Of a stretch of 64,000 nt of DNA, positions 4,724 through 36,080 are shown piece by piece (the first letter of the stretch is position 1; each line of letters opens with the position of its first letter). The stretch is from Roseicyclus salinarum. GTDB lineage: Bacteria; Pseudomonadota; Alphaproteobacteria; Rhodobacterales; Rhodobacteraceae. The stretch is taken from NCBI RefSeq assembly GCF_029624655.1, contig NZ_JARRSA010000008.1:1-64000 (forward strand), written 5' to 3'. The notes beneath the pieces were generated by a model, which saw only the letters and a list, made by a program, of their open reading frames with translations, was not told the DNA's origin and searched no databases. The translations under genes were made by a program, and so were the position numbers.

Positions 4724-4829
4724 AAGCCCGGAAAAGAAAATCCTGAATGTCCTCAGGGGCCTTCGTGCCACAAGCCCGTGCGCCGCATCGCCCCGGATGC
4801 ACCCCCGCGTTCGGCAGGCGTGGCAGACG

Positions 4830-5672
4830 TCACGCCGCGCGGTGCGGTCGCAGCCCGAGGATCCTGCGCGCCTCGGCCCATGTCGCAACGGGCCGGCCGT
4901 GCTTGTCGCAGATTTCGGCCGCGCGCCGCACCAGCGCCGCGTTCGACGGGGCGAGCGTGTCGCGGTCGAGGCGCACGTTGTCCTCGAGGCCCGTGCGCGC
5001 ATGGCCTCCGGCGGCGATGGCCCACTCGTTCAGCACGACCTGGGTCGCGCCGATCCCCGCCGCGCACCACGGCGCGTCCTCGCCGAACAGGCGGCGCACG
5101 GTGTGGATGTAGTAGTCGAACACATCGCGATCCGCGGGCATTGCGTTCTTCACGCCCATGACGAACTGGACGTAGGGCGTGCCGGCAAGCTGGCCGCGAC
5201 CGGCCATCTCGGCCGCCTTCAGGATGTGGCTCAGGTCGAACGCCTCGATCTCGGGCTTCACGTCATGGGCGCGCATCTCGGCGGCGAGCCAGTCCACGAG
5301 ATCCGGCGGGTTCTCGTAGACGCGCGTGGGAAAGTTGTTGGAGCCGACGGACAGCGAGGCCATGTCGGGCCTCAAGGGCAGCATTCCGCCCCGCTCCCGG
5401 CCCGCCCCGGACCGGCCGCCGGTCGAGAACTGGACGATCATGCCGGGGCAGTATCTCTCGACGCCCTCCTTCAGGCGCGCGAACTTCTCGGGGTCGGAGG
5501 ACGGGGTCTGATCGTCGTTCCGGACATGGGCGTGGACGATGGAGGCGCCGGCCTCGAACGCCTCGTGGGTGCTTTCGACCTGTTCGGAGACCGTGATCGG
5601 CACGGCGGGATTGTTGGCCTTCGTGGGCAGGGAGCCCGTGATGGCCACGCAGATGATGCAGGGGTTCGTCAT
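4830..5672 (-). CDS. BKACE-family beta-keto acid cleavage enzyme
   Basis: 280 residues, in the normal 270-310 range. The start MTNPCIICVAITGSLPTKANNPAVP and the zinc-binding motif ASIVHAHVRND (two His) define the 3-keto-5-aminohexanoate cleavage family, which condenses a beta-keto acid with acetyl-CoA to give acetoacetate and a CoA ester. Other family blocks present are MIVQFSTGGRSG, FDLSHILKAAEM and GLEDNVRLDRDTLAPSNAALV. The ATG has GGGAGG upstream. The substrate cannot be read from sequence; members act on 3-keto-5-aminohexanoate, dehydrocarnitine and others. No lysine or carnitine genes lie beside it. Confidence 0.88.
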   Translation of the reverse strand: MTNPCIICVAITGSLPTKANNPAVPITVSEQVESTHEAFEAGASIVHAHVRNDDQTPSSDPEKFARLKEGVERYCPGMIVQFSTGGRSGAGRERGGMLPLRPDMASLSVGSNNFPTRVYENPPDLVDWLAAEMRAHDVKPEIEAFDLSHILKAAEMAGRGQLAGTPYVQFVMGVKNAMPADRDVFDYYIHTVRRLFGEDAPWCAAGIGATQVVLNEWAIAAGGHARTGLEDNVRLDRDTLAPSNAALVRRAAEICDKHGRPVATWAEARRILGLRPHRAA

Positions 5673-5927
5673 GGTTTCATGCCTCCCGGCCTTGTCTTGC
5701 AGGTCGCCGATCGCAGGCCCGTCGGGCGCGCGCCTCCGTCACGCCTATCGAGTAACCGGGGATCGCCCCCGCGTCGAGCGGTCCCCGCGTGGCCATGCGC
5801 CGCCGGGCGCGGCAGGCTCGCCATCGGAACGCGCCCGCCGGAACGGAATGCGCGGCCGGATGTTCTTCCTGCGAAGCGGGTGCCGTGCGGGCGGCCCCGG
5901 CCGCCATGACCGAGCGGGAGGACGAAG

Positions 5928-6569
5928 ATGCTGACGCGCCGCCATTTCATCGTGACAAGCGCCGCCCTGTTCTCGGGGCCCATCGCCGGCCCCGCGCTGG
6001 CCAGCGGTCCGCCAAGCGCCGCGCAGAAGGCTGCGTGGGACGCGCAGGTGACGCCGCCGAACTACGACCCGGCGACCTCGAACCCCTGGGGCCTGCATCC
6101 CCGTTTCCTGCCGACCCGCGTCGAGACGCGCGCGGGCCTTGCGCCGGGGGATCTGCACGTCGATGCGGTCGCGCGGTTCCTCTACCACATCGGCCCCGGC
6201 CGGACGGCCATGCGCTACGGCGTCGCCATCGGGCGCGGCGGTCTCTACCAGCCGGGAACCTTCAGGATCGGGCGGAAGGCGGAATGGCCAAGCTGGACGC
6301 CCACCCGCGCGATGATCGAGCGCGAGCCTGACGTCTACGCGCGCTGGGCCGACGGGATGGAGCCCGGCCCCGAGAACGCGCTCGGCTCGCGGGCGTTCTA
6401 CCTCTACCAGGGCGGTCGGGACACCTACCTGCGCATTCATGGCACGCCGCAGCCGTGGTCCATCGGCACGCGCGCAAGCTCGGGCTGCGTGCGCATGGTC
6501 ATGGCGCATATCAACGATCTTTACGACCGTGTGGCTGTCGGCGTGACCGCGCATCTCTACCCGGCCTGA
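5928..6569 (+). CDS. exported L,D-transpeptidase (YkuD domain)
   Basis: 213 residues. The N-terminus MLTRRHFIVTSAALFSGP has a Tat-like RR and a hydrophobic core, with likely cleavage after ALAS at residue 26. The catalytic block RIHGTPQPWSIGTRASSGCVRM contains the conserved His and the nucleophilic Cys of the SxGC(V/I)R motif. The family forms 3-3 cross-links in peptidoglycan or attaches proteins to it in the periplasm, using Cys on meso-diaminopimelate stems. The GGGAGGACGAAG upstream supports the start. It stands alone between minus-strand genes. Alphaproteobacteria carry several paralogues, so its particular role is open. Confidence 0.9.
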   Translation: MLTRRHFIVTSAALFSGPIAGPALASGPPSAAQKAAWDAQVTPPNYDPATSNPWGLHPRFLPTRVETRAGLAPGDLHVDAVARFLYHIGPGRTAMRYGVAIGRGGLYQPGTFRIGRKAEWPSWTPTRAMIEREPDVYARWADGMEPGPENALGSRAFYLYQGGRDTYLRIHGTPQPWSIGTRASSGCVRMVMAHINDLYDRVAVGVTAHLYPA

Positions 6570-6603
6570 CCCGGACCCGCCGCAAGGGGGCGGACGCGCG
6601 GCC

Positions 6604-7248
6604 TCATCCCGCGCCCTGGATCGAGGTCACCCAGCCCGCCGACACGGTAAGCAGCGCCACGAAGGCCGCGAAGGCGGCCAGCGCCAGCACGGTTGGCCCC
6701 GAGCGCCCCGGAAAGCGCCTCGCGAGGGGCGCGAGACGCACGGAGCGCCGGATCGCCGAGACGTAGAGGGGCAGGGCGCTGACCAGCGTGGCATGGAGAT
6801 AGACGCCCGAAATGTTCTCCAGAAACGCGGACCGCGCGAGCGTCGGGGCGACGACGCTCAACGCGGTCGCGGGGTCGCCGCCGAAGGACCCGAACCACCG
6901 CGCCGACAGGACGTAGATGACGCCATGAAGCGCCACGAAGACCGCGAGGCGCAAGGCGATGTCGACCGGGATCGCCAACGCCGCGTCCCGCGTCCCGTCA
7001 CGCGCCTCCCGCGAGGCGTAGAGCACGAAGCCGACCCAGTTCACCGCGAAGACCACGGGCAGCCCGTTTGTCAGGACCTGCCGCAGGAACAGCCACAGTG
7101 CCGGTCCGCCCTCGAGAAGCATTCCCGCGAAGCCCGGCCTGAGCGACACGAACAGCGCCAGCAGCGGCACAAGGGCCGCGAGGCTCACGATCAGCGTGTT
7201 CCGCGCGAAGCGCAGGAACGGCATGTCGAGCGAGAACAGGTGCTGCAT
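6604..7248 (-). CDS. hypothetical multi-pass membrane protein
   Basis: About 214 residues with five likely membrane helices (around TLIVSLAALVPLLALF, LWLFLRQVLTNGLPVVF, VDIALRLAVFVALHGVIYVL, GVYLHATLVSALPLYVSA and TVLALAAFAAFVALLTVS). The start ATG has GGAGG only three bases upstream; a start 16 codons earlier is open but lacks similarity and a binding site. I do not recognise the family. It converges with the L,D-transpeptidase gene and lies 81 bases downstream of the iron alcohol dehydrogenase gene on the same strand, so it could be a distal part of the glycerol transcript. Confidence 0.6.
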   Translation of the reverse strand: MQHLFSLDMPFLRFARNTLIVSLAALVPLLALFVSLRPGFAGMLLEGGPALWLFLRQVLTNGLPVVFAVNWVGFVLYASREARDGTRDAALAIPVDIALRLAVFVALHGVIYVLSARWFGSFGGDPATALSVVAPTLARSAFLENISGVYLHATLVSALPLYVSAIRRSVRLAPLARRFPGRSGPTVLALAAFAAFVALLTVSAGWVTSIQGAG

Positions 7249-7329
7249 CAGCCTCCGGGGCGGGCGGTGGGGCCGGCCTTGGGCCAAGCCAAACACGCCC
7301 CGCCTCCTGTGTCGAGGCGCCGGCGCGCC

Positions 7330-8460
7330 TCAGGCCTCGGCGAGGATCGCCCTCAGCGACGCGTCATCGAGGTCTACCGGGTTCGCGGAATAGGAAGACG
7401 AGGCCTTCGCCTCCTGCGCGACCCGTGCATGGTCGGCGGCGCCGAGGCCCTGGTCGGCAAGCCCTTGCAGGCCATGCGCGGCCGACCATTCCTGGAAGGC
7501 GTCCAGGCTTTCGAACTCCTCCCCGATCCGGTCGAGCACCCAGTCGAGGCGTTCGCCGCCCGGTGTGTCTGGGCCTGCCGCGCGCCGGTTCGCCCGCAGG
7601 ACGTGCGGAAGCAGCGCGCCGCAGATCGCGCCATGCGCGGCGCCCGTAAGGCCGCCGATGACGCCGGCGAAATCGTGGACGGCCCCGAGACCCGCATTCG
7701 CCAGCGCGATGCCCCCGGCAAGGCTGGTCAGCGCCATGTCGTCCCACGCCCCGTCGTCGGGCGCGTCCATGATGCGGCGCAGCGCCGACAATCCGCGCGG
7801 GATCGCGTCCCGGCAGAGCGCGTCGGTGAACGGGTTCGCGCGCCGGCTGACGAAAGGCTCGACGACCTGCGTGACGGCATCGAGGCCCGACGCGAGCGCG
7901 ACGTGCCGCGGGCAGGAGGCGGCAAGGCTCGGGTCCACGATGGCGAGCGCGGGATAGAGGCGCGGGTCGCGCAGGCTGACCTTGCGGGCCGCATCGGGGA
8001 TCTGGATCACGGCGTTGCGCGTGACCTCCGAACCCGTTCCCGCGGTGGTCGGTATCGCGATCACCGGCAGCGGCGCGGTGTCGAGGGGCCGGCCCTCGCC
8101 CACCACCTCGAGATAGCGCAGCGGCCCGTGCGGCGCGGGCAGCAGGGCGGCAAGCGCCTTGCCGTGGTCGATCACCGCGCCGCCGCCGATGGCCACGATC
8201 ATCTCGGGCGCGAAGGGCCGCGCCGTCTCGCAGCCCGCGAGTATGCCCGGCAGGTCGGGCTCGCCCCGCGCCACGATCTCGAGGACATCGCCCCCGGCCC
8301 CGAGCGCCCGGACGAGGTCGTCGGCCGCCGCGACAGAGGCGCTGCGCACCACGAGGATGCGCCTCGCGCGCGCCAGTGCCGAGGGTGCGGCCTCGGCCAG
8401 CGTGCCGCGTCCGAAGCGGATCGCGCCGGCCGTGGCGAAACCGAAGGCGGCGACGCTCAT
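7330..8460 (-). CDS. iron-containing alcohol dehydrogenase
   Basis: 376 residues. The NAD-binding loop [18 protein letters not shown], the family block [21 protein letters not shown] and the metal-ligand region [12 protein letters not shown] followed by [15 protein letters not shown] define group III, Fe(II)-dependent dehydrogenases. The ATG overlaps the glpK stop (ATGA), so it is translationally coupled to glycerol kinase. Members oxidise alcohols such as 1,3-propanediol, butanol or glycerol, or reduce the aldehydes. A role in a second route for glycerol or a related polyol is a reasonable inference from position. The tail is shorter than in typical 380-390 residue members but all blocks are present. 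Confidence 0.9.
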
Positions 8461-9941
8461 ACGCTCAGTACCGCGGTCACGGCCCGCTTCCAGCGTGTGT
8501 AGCGCTGGGCGCGCTGCGCGTCGTCCATCCGGGGCGTGAATTGACGTTCCATGGCCCAGGTCGCCGCGAATTCCTCCATGTCGGGCCATGCGCCGGCGCG
8601 CGTCCCCGCGAGCCATGCAGCGCCGAGGGCCGTCGTCTCCAGGACCTCGGGGCGGTCCACCGGGGCGCCGATGATGTCGGACAGGAACTGCATCGCGTAG
8701 TCGTTGGCCGCCATGCCGCCATCGACCCGCAGCGAGGGCTGCGCGCCCTCGCGCGCCCAGTCCGCCTGCATCGCCTCCAGCAGGTCGCGGGTCTGGTAGC
8801 CCACCGACTCCAGCGCCGCGCGCGCGAATTCGGCCGGGCCCGAATTGCGCGTCATGCCGAAGACCGCGCCGCGCGCCTCGGGGTTCCAGTAGGGCGCGCC
8901 GAGGCCCACGAAGGCGGGTACGAGGATCAGGTCCTGCGAAGTCTCCGCCGTCTCGGCGAGGCCCTGCGTCTCGGCTGCGGCCCGGATCACCTTCAGTCCG
9001 TCCCGCAGCCACTGGACCACGGCGCCGGCAATGAAGATCGACCCCTCGAGCGCATAGGTCGGCCGCCCGTCGAGCTGGTAGGCGATCGTCGTGAGAAGCT
9101 TGTTGGTCGAGGCCACGGGCGTGTCGCCGGTGTTGAGAACGGCGAAGCAGCCGGTTCCGTAGGTCGATTTCAACATGCCGGGCGTGAAGCAGGCCTGCCC
9201 GATGGTGGCGGCCTGCTGATCCCCCGCGACGCCGAGGATCGGGATCTCCCGCCCGAAGAGGTCGGCGCGGGTCATGCCGAAATCGGCGGCGCAGTCGAGC
9301 ACTTCGGGCAGCATCTCGACGGGGATGTCGAAGAGGTCGCAGATCGTCCGGCTCCAGCGGCCCTTGTGGATGTCGTAAAGCATGGTGCGCGCGGCATTCG
9401 TCGCATCGGTCACGTGACGCCCGCCGGTGAGGTTCCAGATCAGCCAGCTGTCGACGGTGCCGAACGCAAGCTCGCCGCGGCGCGCGCGGTCGCGGGCGCC
9501 TTCGACATTGTCGAGCAGCCACTTGACCTTGGTCGCCGAGAAATAGGGGTCGGCCAGAAGGCCGGTCCGCGCGGTGATCATCGGCTCGTGGCCGTCCTCG
9601 CGCAGCTTCGCGCAGAAATCGGCGGTGCGACGGTCCTGCCAGACGATCGCGTTGTGGATCGGGCGGCCCGTGGCGCGGTCCCAGACCAGCGTCGTCTCGC
9701 GCTGGTTGGTGATGCCGATCGCGGCGATGTCGGCGGCATGGAGCCCGGCCTTCTCGATCGCCGCCCTCGCGGTGGCGGCCGTGGTGGCCCAGAGGTCCGA
9801 GGGATCGTGCTCGACCCAGCCCGAGGCCGGGTAGTGCTGCGGGAATTCCTCCTGCGCGACGGCGGCGATGCGCATGGTTCCGTCGAAGACGATGCCGCGA
9901 CTGGATGTCGTGCCCTGATCGAGCGCCAGAATGTAGCCCAT
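8457..9941 (-). CDS. glpK: glycerol kinase
   Basis: 494 residues, the standard length. The ATP-binding start is [20 protein letters not shown]. The FGGY signatures include [26 protein letters not shown] and [19 protein letters not shown]. It phosphorylates glycerol to glycerol-3-phosphate in the cytoplasm, feeding GlpD. The start is fixed by AGGAG seven bases before the ATG. Downstream it overlaps the iron dehydrogenase by 4 bases; upstream lie a terminator-like hairpin and the scar of the deleted transporter, so expression depends on read-through from glpD or on its own promoter. Confidence 0.97.
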
Positions 9942-12906: not shown

Positions 12907-13554
12907 TCAGGCGCGTGTCTTCCGGGCCTCGGAGCTGGCCAGTTGTTCGTAGAGCTGGGCCTGGTTTTCCACCATGCGGTCGGTGATGAGCCGGGTCAGC
13001 ATCAACCCGAACTCCGGATGCTCCTGGTAGATCCTGAGCACCGTCGGCCGGTCGATCGCGCAGAGCGTCGCGCGTCCCGCGGCGCGCACCGTCGCCGTGC
13101 GCAGCTTGCCGTCAGAGAACAGCCCGATCTCGCCGAAGATCTCGCCCGCATCGAGGAACTTGCCGAATTCGACGATCTCCACGCGGCCCTCCTGAACGTA
13201 ATAGAGCGTGTCGGCCTCGTCGCCCCGGCGGAAGACGACCGCCCCGTCCGCGACGTGCATCTCGGTCATGAAGGGCAGCAGCACCTCGGCCGAGCTTGGC
13301 CCCTGCGTGGCCTTCCGGACGCGCCGGATCAGCGCGACCTGCTCGCCGAGGCGGAACAGGTTCATCGGCAACAGCGCGCTGTGCAGCAGCAGGATGGGAA
13401 ACAGCTGTCCGCCGACTCCGTAGACGATGAAGGCGATGTTCGAGACGACCGCGGCCACCCGCAGCCAGACCAGGGTCTTCATGCAGAACGTGATGAAGAC
13501 GAGGACCGAGGCCAGGTAGCCTACGAGCTCGATGGGGTCTGGAAGCATGTCCAT
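12907..13554 (-). CDS. membrane-anchored cyclic-nucleotide-binding protein
   Basis: 215 residues. The N-terminal half has hydrophobic segments (IELVGYLASVLVFITFCMKT, LRVAAVVSNIAFIVYGVGGQ and LFPILLLHSALLPMNLFRL), probably three helices. From about residue 100 it has a cNMP-binding fold with ADGAVVFRRGDEADTLYYVQ, EIFGEIGLFSDGKLRTATVR (the FGE phosphate-binding region) and a C-terminal helix. There is no DNA-binding domain, so it is not a CRP-type factor; such proteins are thought to sense cAMP or a related nucleotide at the membrane. It lies 58 bases downstream of the Amt-cyclase remnant on the same strand. I know similar proteins in Rhodobacteraceae but no assigned function. Confidence 0.8.
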   Translation of the reverse strand: MDMLPDPIELVGYLASVLVFITFCMKTLVWLRVAAVVSNIAFIVYGVGGQLFPILLLHSALLPMNLFRLGEQVALIRRVRKATQGPSSAEVLLPFMTEMHVADGAVVFRRGDEADTLYYVQEGRVEIVEFGKFLDAGEIFGEIGLFSDGKLRTATVRAAGRATLCAIDRPTVLRIYQEHPEFGLMLTRLITDRMVENQAQLYEQLASSEARKTRA

Positions 13555-13612
13555 GATGCCGTCAAATCCCGTTCTGCTGGATCGGCAGGTCGCCGCGGGC
13601 AATTGGCACGGG

Positions 13613-14620
13613 TCAGGCTCCCGTCAAGGCATCCGGTGCGCGACCGGACTTGCGGGCCACTCCGATGCGGCCGCCTTCGATCGTATGGAGTATCGTCGGA
13701 CGGCCCCCCTTGAGGCACACACGCGCTTGACGCTGGTCAACGAACTCGTCACCGATCCGGCCGATCACAGTGTGGCTCACGCTGATCTTCCCGGTCTTGC
13801 CTGCCTCCTCGATACGCCGGGCGATGTTCACGGTCATTCCCCGCACGTCGTGGATGAAGCGCAGCTCGCCCACCACGCCCGCAACCAGCGGTCCGCTGTG
13901 GATTGCGACCCGCGCCTGCAGATCACGGCTGGTCTGGCGACCAGCCTGCCTTGTCTCGAACAGGAACTCCTGCACCCCGTCAACTGCAATCGCGCCGTGA
14001 TCCCAGACGTTGCGGCCGGTGGTCTCCACATGCCGCGTCAGCGCGCCGAAGCCCGACAGGGCGACCGCAACCAGCACCCGGAGCCCCGCCATGAAATGGA
14101 GCCGCACCGCCCGAACCATGTCGTCGATGCGAAGCCGTTCATGCAGGCGGTCGCCGAACAGCGCGATGCAGCCCGCGACGACGCCGATCACCATCGCCAC
14201 GCGCAGGCCGACGAGACCGCCAGCCGCCGTCACGACGACAAGGACGGCAAGGCCGCCGTTCATGCCGTGGAATATGCTCGCCTCGCGGTCGATCGCCCAG
14301 GCAAGGTCAAGTCCCGTCAGAACGCCGCCCGCCCCGCTGACGACGGTGTTCAGCGACAACTCCAGCACCGCGTCCGTCATTCCCAGCGCGCTGCCGCCGC
14401 CCACGGCATGGACGACGTCCGACCCCGCCCCGAACATCAGCCCGTAGCCGAGGACGCAGAACAGGATCACCGAAAGCGCGAAGTCCGGGATGTTCTTCAT
14501 GGCGACGCTGATGTTGTCCTTGGCGCGGATGATCCCGGCTTCGATGCACGCGAACCTCGCCCGCATCACGAAGACGAGGATCGAGCACAGCAGCACCCAA
14601 GCAAGATCGACCTGGCCCAT
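13613..14620 (-). pseudogene. shortened ammonium transporter-adenylate cyclase fusion
   Basis: An open frame of 335 residues where an intact fusion would be at least twice as long. Residues 1-60 match the Amt start (DLAWVLLCSILVFVMRARF, EAGIIRAKDNISVAMKN). The conserved centre of Amt is gone, and the frame resumes in the C-terminal Amt helices (NTVVSGAGGVLTG, IFHGMNGGLAVLVVVTAA, FGDRLHERLRIDDMVRAVRL). The end is the last third of a class III cyclase (VAIHSGPLVAGVVGELRFIH, then MTVNIARRIEEAGKTGKISV); the metal-binding first half of that domain is missing. Transport and cyclase activity are therefore unlikely. The frame is intact, so a short protein may still be made. Confidence 0.7.
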
Positions 14621-33472: not shown

Positions 33473-35980
33473 CTATCGGGCCCGCTCGGGCAGAAGGCCC
33501 TCCGAGGCGATGCCGCGTTTCTCGGCGCTCGCCCGCACCGCCTCGCGAAGCGTCGCGCTGCGCTTCAGAAGGCGGCGGAACCGCGCCTCGTCGAGGACCA
33601 GCAGCGTCGAAGGCGCGATCGCGCGCACCTCGGCCCGGCGCGGCCGCCGCATGAGGATCGCGAGCTGCCCGAACATCTCGCCCCGGCCCAACCGCCACGT
33701 CTGGCCCGCGCTTTCCAGCTCCACCGCGCCCGAGGCGATGAAGAACACGCTGGAGGCGGGGGCATCCCTGTCGATGACCAACTCGCCCGCATTGACGTAG
33801 CGGGTCTGAAGCGTGCGCCCCAGCCGCCTCAGGGCGGAGGCGTCGAGATCGGCGAACAGCGGGAACTGGCGCACCAGCTCGGCCCGCTGAATCGCGATGT
33901 CGAGGCGCGGGCGACCCTCGGCGATGGCGCGGCGCAGGGCGATGTCCTGCATCAGCGCGGTGTGAACCTCGGCGCCGATCAGGCCATCCTCGCGCATCGC
34001 GGCGTATTCGCGCTCCTCCAGCCGCAGGGCGGTGCGCCGGATGAAGCGCCGCTCCAGCTCCTCGGCATAGCCCGGATACTGCAGCCGGAGCCCCTCCAGC
34101 GCGGTCTCCAGCGCCTCGACCCTCCGCGCGAGCAGGTCGCGCAGAAGCTCGGCCACGCGCCGCCCGTGGATGCGCCTTATGCGTCCATCGATGAAGGCGC
34201 CGAGGTCACGCAGGATCAACCGCTGCGACAGCAGAAGCTCGAACCGGTCCGCCGTCATCCTCGCAAGCGGCGCGGACAGGCCGAGCCGCCGTTGCAGGAC
34301 GACCGCCGCCTGGAAGGGGCTGCCATAGGCGATGCTGCGCCGCGCCGCGCGCTGATAGCCGCTGCGCCCGTTCGACCGCGCGCCCTCGATCAGGCGGTCG
34401 GCGTCCGACAGGATCCGCTCCGCCATCCTCGCCGAGATCGTCCGGTCGCGCACGCGGGCGAGGATCTGGTCGCGTTCGTGACCCGCCAGGGCGATCAGGC
34501 CCAGTGTGATGCGATCGCGGTCGAGGATGTCGGCGCTGGCCTCGGCCGTCTTGACCGCGGCGTCCAGCCGCTCGCCGAAGTCCTTGGCCTCGGAGCGGAC
34601 GATGTCGTGGGTCAGCTCGTAGTTCTCGTTGGTGCGGGCGAGGTCCTCGCGCACCGTCTGCAGGGACACCGCCACCACCTGCCGCGACAGCGCCTCGTCG
34701 ATGGGCGACAGGCGGTCGAGGCCAAGCCGCGCGATGACCCAGCGCAGCGTGGTGCCCTGCACGATCAGCGTGAACAGCGTGAAGCCGGTGGCGAGGATGC
34801 CGACGATGCGCTTGGTTTCGGCGGGAACCCTGAAGCTTTCGGTCACGGCCAGCGCCAGCGCGAGCGTGACGGCGCCGCGCAGCCCGCCCCACAGGATCGC
34901 GGCGCGGTACGGCGTCTCGACCGGAGGCGACAGGCGCAGCGCCGTCAGCAGCGGCAGAAGCCCGAAGAGCATCACGGCGCGCGCGGCGACCGCGGCCACG
35001 ATCACCACGACGATCAGGCCGAAATCGCCCGGCCGCGCGCCTTCCAGCAGACGCGGGATCAGCAGCGCCGCCAGGATGAAGATCAGCGCCCCGGCCCAGT
35101 AGGCCAGCAGGTCCCAGACCTCGCGCAGATTGGCCCATGCCTGCGGCGGAAGGCGTCCGGGCCCGCCGAGGTTCAGCGTCAGGCCCGCCGCGACCACGGC
35201 GATGACGCCCGACGCCCCCACCAGCTGCTCGGCGCCGATGTAGGCGAGGTAGGGCAGGGCGACCGAGATCGAGATCTGCGCCCGTTCGTGCCGCGAGAAC
35301 ATGGCCATGACCCAGACCGCGAGCCGGGCCGAAAGCCAGCCGGTCAGCGCACCCCCGGCCACGAGGACGGGAAAGCGCGCGATCGCCTCGCCAAGGTCGG
35401 GATCCGGCACGCCCAGCATCACGAAGCCCATGAACAGGCCGAAGAGCGCGATGGCGGCGGCGTCGTTGAGAAGGCTCTCGCCCTCGATGATGCGCGCCAG
35501 CCTGCGCGGCGCCGAGATCGAGCGGAAGATCGAGACCACGGCCGAGGGATCCGTGGTCGAGACGATGGCGCCGATCAGAAGACAGGCGACGAGGGGCAGG
35601 GCGCTGGCCCATGACAGCGCGACGCCGACGGCCATCGTCGCCACGAAGACCGCGACGATGGCCAGCACGAGGATCGGCACCCAGTCGTCGAGCATCCGGC
35701 GCAGGTTCATCCCGAGCGTCGCCTGAAACAGGAGCGTCGGAAGGAAGACGTAGAGAAACACGTTGGAGCGGATCGGAAGCCCGAGGATCGCCTCGGCCAC
35801 GGGGTTCAGCGCGTCGGTCAGTTCGGTGCGCAGGAAGAAGATCGCGCCGACCCCGATCAGGACTCCGAGGACGGCGAGGATCACGCTGTGCGGCAGCCGC
35901 AGCCGCGCCGCGAGCGGCTCGGCCGCGCCGATCACGAGGAACAGGCAGGCGATCACGGTGGTCAGAAGAACGATGTCCAT
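33473..35980 (-). CDS. CPA1-type Na+(K+)/H+ antiporter with C-terminal cNMP-binding domain
   Basis: 835 residues. The first about 420 are twelve helices of the NhaP/CPA1 type, with SVILAVLGVLIGVG, the ion-site block LIGAIVSTTDPSAVVSIFRS and EGESLLNDAAAIALFGLFMG, and ILWGGLRGAVTLALAL. A long alpha-helical linker follows, and residues about 690-835 form a cNMP-binding fold (LVIDRDAPASSVFFIASGAV, RGEMFGQLAILMRRPRRAEV). Such proteins exchange Na+ or K+ for H+ at the inner membrane, gated by cyclic nucleotides. The start is the ATG at MDIVLL. Confidence 0.92.
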   Translation of the reverse strand: MDIVLLTTVIACLFLVIGAAEPLAARLRLPHSVILAVLGVLIGVGAIFFLRTELTDALNPVAEAILGLPIRSNVFLYVFLPTLLFQATLGMNLRRMLDDWVPILVLAIVAVFVATMAVGVALSWASALPLVACLLIGAIVSTTDPSAVVSIFRSISAPRRLARIIEGESLLNDAAAIALFGLFMGFVMLGVPDPDLGEAIARFPVLVAGGALTGWLSARLAVWVMAMFSRHERAQISISVALPYLAYIGAEQLVGASGVIAVVAAGLTLNLGGPGRLPPQAWANLREVWDLLAYWAGALIFILAALLIPRLLEGARPGDFGLIVVVIVAAVAARAVMLFGLLPLLTALRLSPPVETPYRAAILWGGLRGAVTLALALAVTESFRVPAETKRIVGILATGFTLFTLIVQGTTLRWVIARLGLDRLSPIDEALSRQVVAVSLQTVREDLARTNENYELTHDIVRSEAKDFGERLDAAVKTAEASADILDRDRITLGLIALAGHERDQILARVRDRTISARMAERILSDADRLIEGARSNGRSGYQRAARRSIAYGSPFQAAVVLQRRLGLSAPLARMTADRFELLLSQRLILRDLGAFIDGRIRRIHGRRVAELLRDLLARRVEALETALEGLRLQYPGYAEELERRFIRRTALRLEEREYAAMREDGLIGAEVHTALMQDIALRRAIAEGRPRLDIAIQRAELVRQFPLFADLDASALRRLGRTLQTRYVNAGELVIDRDAPASSVFFIASGAVELESAGQTWRLGRGEMFGQLAILMRRPRRAEVRAIAPSTLLVLDEARFRRLLKRSATLREAVRASAEKRGIASEGLLPERAR

Positions 35981-36080
35981 GACCCGGTCATAGCATCCGC
36001 GCGGTGCCGCGCGCATGTCGAATACGCTGCCCGAAAGCTCCCTGCGCGCCGCGCGGGGGCATGGGGCGCCGGATGGCCCC

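Follow-up and report, generated by a model that had tools for sequence, protein, structure and literature searches.

Probable decay of an ammonium-sensing adenylyl cyclase gene beside an intact cyclic-nucleotide receptor gene in Roseicyclus salinarum

Introduction

The stretch of DNA analyzed here (the window, 64,000 nucleotides of the genome of Roseicyclus salinarum) holds an open reading frame that joins parts of an ammonium transporter (Amt) to part of a class III nucleotide cyclase, next to a gene for a membrane protein with a cyclic-nucleotide (cNMP) binding domain. The locus raises the question of whether so compacted a gene is the remnant of a lost sensor or a protein with a role of its own in the short form. 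A sequence-only reading had argued that multiple deletions that all keep the frame are unusual for simple decay, and had proposed that an ammonium-linked nucleotide signal pair may once have existed here or that a non-catalytic scaffold may remain. Our analysis suggested that the gene is most probably a decayed ammonium-sensing adenylyl cyclase, the sensor having been lost through four deletions and relaxed selection, with the receptor gene left intact.

Domain content of the shortened gene and its neighbor

The 335-codon frame is real and open on the minus strand, from an ATG at 14620 to the stop codon at 13613-13615, and lies on a source contig of 173 kb. The use of an upstream GTG as an alternative start would give a product of 358 aa. 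Pfam analysis, combined with alignment to eight intact relatives, identified the feature at 13613..14620 (minus) as the remnant of an Amt-class III cyclase gene. As had been read from the letters, the ammonium transporter is partial, with Ammonium_transp matched only in two stretches (profile positions 1-61 and 209-328 of 399). The cyclase had been described as the last third of a class III enzyme; what is kept is instead the last half of the catalytic domain (Guanylate_cyc profile 91-181 of 183), without the first ~90 of the 183 domain positions but with the specificity Asp and a TVN..R motif. The window copy therefore holds neither a complete Amt domain nor a complete class III domain with both metal-binding Asp residues.

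The neighboring membrane protein with a cNMP-binding domain was also found, on the same strand and 58 nt downstream of the remnant. Its frame extends over 12907-13602, with a likely start at 13554, and the resulting 215-aa protein (12907..13554, minus; Pfam, alignments and hydropathy) combines three hydrophobic segments with a cNMP_binding domain (E 9e-18). With a 17-residue window all three segments were detected in 10 of 10 receptors, and at a stricter cut-off two of the three were detected in the window receptor. It retains 34 of the 36 positions invariant in five homologues, and the two changes are conservative; this control is small, the five homologues themselves changing at 0-6 of 34-40 positions. 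The alignment also contains GEIGLF...RTATV, which we take to be the canonical phosphate-binding cassette. By these measures of its sequence, the receptor gene is intact.

Intact relatives and common descent

Among 394 sampled genomes of the family, with up to 5 candidates per genome scored, at least two full-length Amt-cyclase genes were found (genomes G740 and G571). The linker and cyclase of the first intact gene were then used as a query against 390 genomes of the order, with up to 6 candidates per genome scored; 77 genomes matched, and at least three more genes were added (G1000, G811 and G830). A scan of named genomes, for which two intact relatives supplied the linker-cyclase alignment, matched 23 stretches, seven of them relatives, of which four were already known. 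Eight intact genes of 656-687 aa were assembled, from Roseivivax lentus (locus L129), Yoonia sediminilitoris (L156), Marivita geojedonensis (L157), genome G830 (L158), a Roseobacter MAG nearly identical to the latter (L162), two further Rhodobacteraceae MAGs (L163 and L130) and a Silicimonas MAG (L165). All eight have a full Amt domain (Pfam 1-397 or 2-397 of 399) and a full class III cyclase (profile 5-182 of 183), and from their sequences the intact form consists of an 11-helix Amt, a conserved linker of ~90 residues and a complete class III cyclase domain.

In these samples the fusion has a sparse, patchy distribution. In the order search, apart from the window's genome and three fusions, 17 other matched loci were checked and none carried Amt; nor was any Amt-cyclase fusion seen among the first 60 relatives. 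Nine long frames scanned among those relatives, some of them plasmid-borne, encoded Amt alone, Amt with other outputs, or a PAS-cyclase. A contig scan with the short protein returned 43 pattern matches and no relative.

The remnant shares 48-64% identity with the eight intact genes over 317 retained columns in the same order, which establishes their common descent, and its placement in the tree of relatives has 83-87% support. No gene sharing its junctions was seen among the best candidates per genome in the searches of family, order and class, so the same short form in relatives, which would have spoken for a genuine new family, was not encountered in the genomes searched. In the four genomes of the window's genus, matches were confined to the Amt portion of the query, and a search for close homologues of the receptor found none (best E 5e-6). 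Because the locus is absent from these four congeners, it would have been acquired by transfer. A plasmid protein search with the remnant gave 125 matching records; none of them reached 80% cover, and those among the 30 listed matched only the Amt part or the cyclase part. The intact form matched 11 plasmid protein records, none past query residue 485, where the cyclase starts, and a plasmid DNA search of the locus found neighboring genes only among the 8 matches listed.

Four in-frame deletions

Alignment with the eight relatives divided the remnant into five pieces separated by four gaps. The supposed deletions could thus be mapped on full-length genes as four in-frame events, A to D, of 93, 50, 41 and 164 codons when counted against the Roseivivax gene. 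The first segment (14429..14620, minus) corresponds to Amt TM1-TM2 (residues 1-64) and carries M-R-A-R-F where the eight relatives carry M-Q-(A/V)-G-F. Deletion A separates it from an 11-residue piece of TM5, AGSDVVHAVGG (14396..14428, minus), which is followed by deletion B, located at an imperfect direct repeat, and then by TM7-TM10 (residues 76-194; 14039..14395, minus). Deletion C, which measures 36-43 codons across the relatives, took TM11, the strongest of the 11 hydrophobic segments in the intact Roseivivax protein by hydropathy. The fourth segment comprises 15 residues of the Amt-to-cyclase linker (13994..14038, minus); beyond it, deletion D removed linker and the cyclase half with the Asp residues that we take to be both metal-binding, catalytic ones. 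The last segment is the C-terminal half of the class III cyclase domain (13613..13993, minus; Pfam and alignment).

In sum, the four deletions removed TM3-4, most of TM5, TM6, TM11, linker and the metal-binding half of the cyclase. Judged from the alignment, the pore helices of Amt are among the deleted parts and, with an N-out start, the loss of TM11 would leave the cyclase part facing the wrong side of the membrane. An AlphaFold model of the remnant had a mean pLDDT of 46.9 and a pTM of 0.32, versus 60.5 and 0.48 for the intact Roseivivax protein, with eight sequences in each alignment.

Constraint on the remnant

The remnant deviates at 29 of the 130 columns that are invariant in all eight relatives. 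The mean BLOSUM62 score of these changes is -0.90; 18 of the 29 are negative and five are to Arg, and Arg residues in TM1 are among the radical changes. When each relative was left out in turn, the three most divergent ones changed at 12/142, 18/148 and 16/146 columns, their mean scores being +0.92, +1.33 and +0.50; the remaining five changed at 0-2 columns.

A test of dN/dS, which had been proposed with the sequence-only reading, was run across the relatives and gave a divided result. The ratio is raised on the window branch, at 0.162 versus a background of 0.036 (2dlnL 10.8 against equal rates and 9.6 against 1), and none of six other tips tested in the codon model deviates (2dlnL at most 1.8); it is nonetheless still below 1, and the cyclase piece taken alone is not distinguishable from the background. 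Relaxation of selection is clear in the Amt part (omega 0.268; 2dlnL 12.5 against background, 3.75 against 1). For the cyclase part (omega 0.088; 2dlnL 1.9 against background, 7.1 against 1), a ratio below 1 leaves formal room for selection or a residual role. The codon model was purpose-written with a single omega per branch, and some branch lengths reached the upper bound. Synonymous sites are near saturation and the window branch includes time before the deletions, so dN/dS does not date the loss; if the excess on this branch represents neutral time, it would amount to ~13% of the branch, or ~0.13 substitutions per site.

In-frame deletions and the open frame

If every deletion had a one-third chance of keeping the frame, four in-frame events would occur with a chance of 1 in 81. 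Direct repeats of 6-10 bases spaced 60-650 bases apart, however, are mostly in-frame: 59% (6-mers) to 67% (10-mers) in the eight intact genes, 70-100% in the Roseivivax gene, which has a GC3 like that of the window gene (8/8 at 10 bases), and 63-85% in 11 hand-picked control genes within window positions 8457-36016. Codon shuffling retained the in-frame excess (56-83% over both gene sets) and nucleotide shuffling abolished it (16-32% for the window genes, 0-34% for the eight relatives); the excess is an effect of codon composition. With an in-frame chance of 60-85% per event, four in-frame deletions have a probability of ~0.13-0.5.

Some of the junctions lie at such repeats. In 15-base windows, the imperfect direct repeat at junction B gave p values of 0.001-0.071, below 0.05 with seven of the eight relatives. 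Junction D lies at a direct repeat in three of the eight and junction A in one, the nearest relative being among them, and junction C in none; the eight relatives are not independent in these tests. The argument that several in-frame deletions speak against simple decay thus finds no support here: most of the repeats are in-frame, and such repeats occur at junction B and, more weakly, at D and A. For GC-rich genes in general, the lesson is that a run of in-frame deletions is poor evidence of selection.

The open frame can be viewed in the same way. In neutral simulations of 0.1-0.15 substitutions per site, the chance of no stop codon was 0.22-0.55 at a GC of 0.67-0.84 and 0.10-0.22 at an equilibrium GC of 0.5; the GC of the window is 0.70. 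One antisense frame over the remnant stretch is likewise free of stops, and for each of the six frames 7-18% of all 335-codon stretches of the window, counting those within real genes, contain no stop, for which reasons the openness of the remnant is weak evidence. Together, the in-frame bias of repeats and GC-rich composition mean that an open frame is often expected from ordinary decay.

Pairing of cyclases and receptors

A gene for a 3-helix cNMP-binding protein adjoins the Amt-cyclase in five of the eight intact loci (L129, L156, L157 with two, L163 and L165). At a sixth, L130, a CRP-type gene stands beside the Amt-cyclase; L158 has one weak cNMP-binding match (E 4e-4) in a 91-codon frame, and no cNMP-binding neighbor was found at L162. 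Since five of eight intact loci, all with complete fusions, pair a similar receptor with the Amt-cyclase, the lost ammonium-cNMP pair supposed from the window alone is well supported and very likely existed. More generally, a set of 21 selected genomes, of which five were included for their Amt-cyclases, contains 31 such receptor genes; 14 of these have a class III cyclase within 6 kb, versus 0.5 expected under uniform placement. Without the five receptors at Amt-cyclase loci, 9 of 26 are paired; they fall into seven loci, and the window's genus accounts for six of these.

In the intact form, ammonium binding in the Amt domain would change the linker and thereby set the activity of a cyclase homodimer. 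The product would be cAMP, the Lys/Asp specificity residues of the intact cyclase presumably marking it as an adenylyl cyclase, and this cyclic nucleotide would be read by the neighboring 3-helix cNMP-binding protein in the same membrane. In the window, the sensor would have been lost by four deletions, at least some of them between short in-frame direct repeats, and relaxed selection would have accompanied or come after them. We would guess that the receptor now answers to other cyclases of the cell.

Several other arrangements of these domains were observed. In the window's genome, two CHASE2-cyclase genes each stand beside 3-helix cNMP-binding genes, one on contig C23 (L167:4015-4800 +, 4799-5515 -, 5527-7902 +) and one on contig C33 (L166:4255-4983 +, 6209-8593 +), and in four species of the window's genus a class III cyclase match lies beside a 3-helix cNMP-binding gene. 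Within the window itself, positions 33473-36016 encode a Na+/H+ exchanger (PF00999) with a C-terminal cNMP-binding domain (PF00027), which by its domain content is likely under cyclic-nucleotide control.

Alternative explanations

The short form could instead be a functional protein, either a non-catalytic scaffold or a dominant-negative partner that contributes only the Asn/Arg side of the active site. Its open frame, the four in-frame junctions, the retained specificity Asp and TVN..R motif and the dN/dS of 0.088 in the cyclase half would be accounted for, and a compacted Amt-cyclase also exists in another alphaproteobacterial family. This second frame, of 262 codons (L083:1177-1965 minus, on G401:C10; also L170:7970-8755), came to light when 385 genomes of the class were searched with the cyclase tail, which as a query favors the C-terminal half, and up to 10 candidates per genome were scored; at least 29 foreign loci were recovered, L083 being the one with Amt. 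It runs from Amt 294-331 (38 residues, TM10) straight into cyclase 58-182 and is 41-44% identical to the eight relatives over 167 columns. L083 shows that Amt-cyclases reach beyond Rhodobacteraceae and, to judge from the alignment, have shrunk in frame more than once; it possibly hints at convergent use of a short form.

L083 nevertheless has junctions unlike those of the window gene. Its tail extends over the following gene, which is convergent, so that the frame runs into that gene's antisense; none of seven other genomes of its family has a frame of this type, and no receptor-like gene was found near it in 18 kb. We take it for another private remnant or for a fusion that arose separately, which does not sustain the idea of a genuine new family, and neither does the lack of a same-junction gene among the best candidates of each genome searched. 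The window gene itself also fits a working scaffold poorly, since the first ~90 positions of the 183-position cyclase domain, with the metal-binding aspartates, are missing along with linker and TM11, the last of which would place the cyclase part on the wrong side given an N-out start. Arg residues in TM1, other radical changes at invariant positions and the poor structural model (mean pLDDT 46.9, pTM 0.32) add to this, and we consider a functional short form unlikely.

Another explanation holds that the frame no longer serves as a protein and stays open in the role of a leader, since frameshifts in it would have a polar effect on the receptor gene, which begins 58 nt downstream. It would fit the shared strand, the short distance and the intact receptor, and it accounts jointly for the open frame and the radical changes. 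The in-frame bias of repeats and the GC-rich composition suffice for the open frame, however, and a leader role appears about as doubtful as a scaffold.

The cyclase-receptor pair might also be a Pycsar-type anti-phage system rather than a nutrient signal, as both follow a two-gene logic of a cyclase and a cNMP-binding effector. The PADLOC models PycC and PycTIR do match the intact cyclase and the cNMP-binding domains, but through shared domains only (best E 5e-14 for the intact cyclase and 7e-11 for the receptors), and the remnant has no PADLOC match at E 0.01. The sensor domain is moreover an Amt, and the Lys/Asp residues fit an adenylyl cyclase. The likeness of the intact pair to Pycsar is a generic one between domains. 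With matches at the domain level only (compare the available part of PMC9117128), this assignment was not favored and seems quite improbable. That the gap pattern, carried by a single genome, is an assembly or sequencing artefact is barely credible given four clean junctions, a 173-kb contig and many substitutions relative to every relative.

Relation to known systems

As a decayed sensor, the remnant would be a case of ordinary gene decay; of greater interest are the intact pairs found in related marine bacteria. Should such a pair work as proposed, it would couple external ammonium directly to cyclic AMP in these organisms. The Amt domain of an intact relative is similar (E 3e-102) to PDB 6EU6, which we take to be Ks-Amt5. 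The best matches to the intact Amt-cyclase are 8QJ3, 8QJ4 and 8QPF ('Ammonium transporter', 644 or 661 aa), over query residues 7-438; they cover the Amt and part of the linker and end before the cyclase domain, and no paper on them was found by entry code. The catalytic domain of the intact relatives resembles those of class III adenylyl cyclases (7YZI 'Adenylate cyclase'; mammalian AC5, AC8 and AC9), from which the intact form differs by its Amt sensor and the window copy by having the C-terminal half only.

According to the part of PMC5764959 available to us, combinations of Amt modules with further domains are on record, and a fusion to a histidine kinase has been characterized. Ks-Amt5 resembles the Amt-cyclase family in using Amt as a sensor with a C-terminal fusion to a signaling enzyme; its output is a histidine kinase, whereas that of the Amt-cyclase family is a class III cyclase. 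Regulation of the Amt-cyclase by ammonium is inferred here from this Amt sensor kinase as an analogue (PMC5764959, same part). In the open-licence PMC literature, no paper on an Amt-class III cyclase fusion was found by title or abstract start, and the word 'cyclase' is absent from the main text, as available, of the review PMC10433425 and of the Ks-Amt5 paper PMC5764959. The family in which Amt is fused to an adenylyl-type cyclase of class III, often with a membrane cNMP receptor encoded next to it, is to that extent undescribed.

On the receptor side, the available parts of PMC5872366 and PMC6562197 describe Popeye (POPDC) cAMP receptors with three hydrophobic helices and a cNMP-binding domain, like the bacterial receptors. 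Six bacterial receptors scored 16.0-25.7 bits against the animal Popeye model PF04831, all below the Pfam cut-off of 28.1, and no match to this model was obtained for the window receptor, the two receptors of L157, that of L163, or L167:4799-5515. From their sequences, the bacterial 3-helix cNMP-binding proteins are possibly POPDC relatives or look-alikes. The stretches matched at 23.6-25.7 bits in L169:3677-4369 +, L166:4255-4983 + and L165:5056-5883 - include the membrane region.

A wider reading, which we put forward tentatively and regard as somewhat less than even in its chances, is that Rhodobacteraceae share a two-gene design in which an Amt- or CHASE2-sensor cyclase and a Popeye-like 3-helix receptor form a membrane-confined cAMP relay. 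The Amt version would report ammonium; the window receptor would have persisted after the loss of its sensor and may have come to respond to the CHASE2 cyclases that remain.

Amt fusions of other kinds were also observed in Alphaproteobacteria, where Amt is joined to methyl-accepting chemotaxis, histidine kinase and PAS-GGDEF-EAL domains (L054, L056, L057, L058 and L059). From their domain content, these proteins are presumed to belong to a wider set of ammonium sensors.
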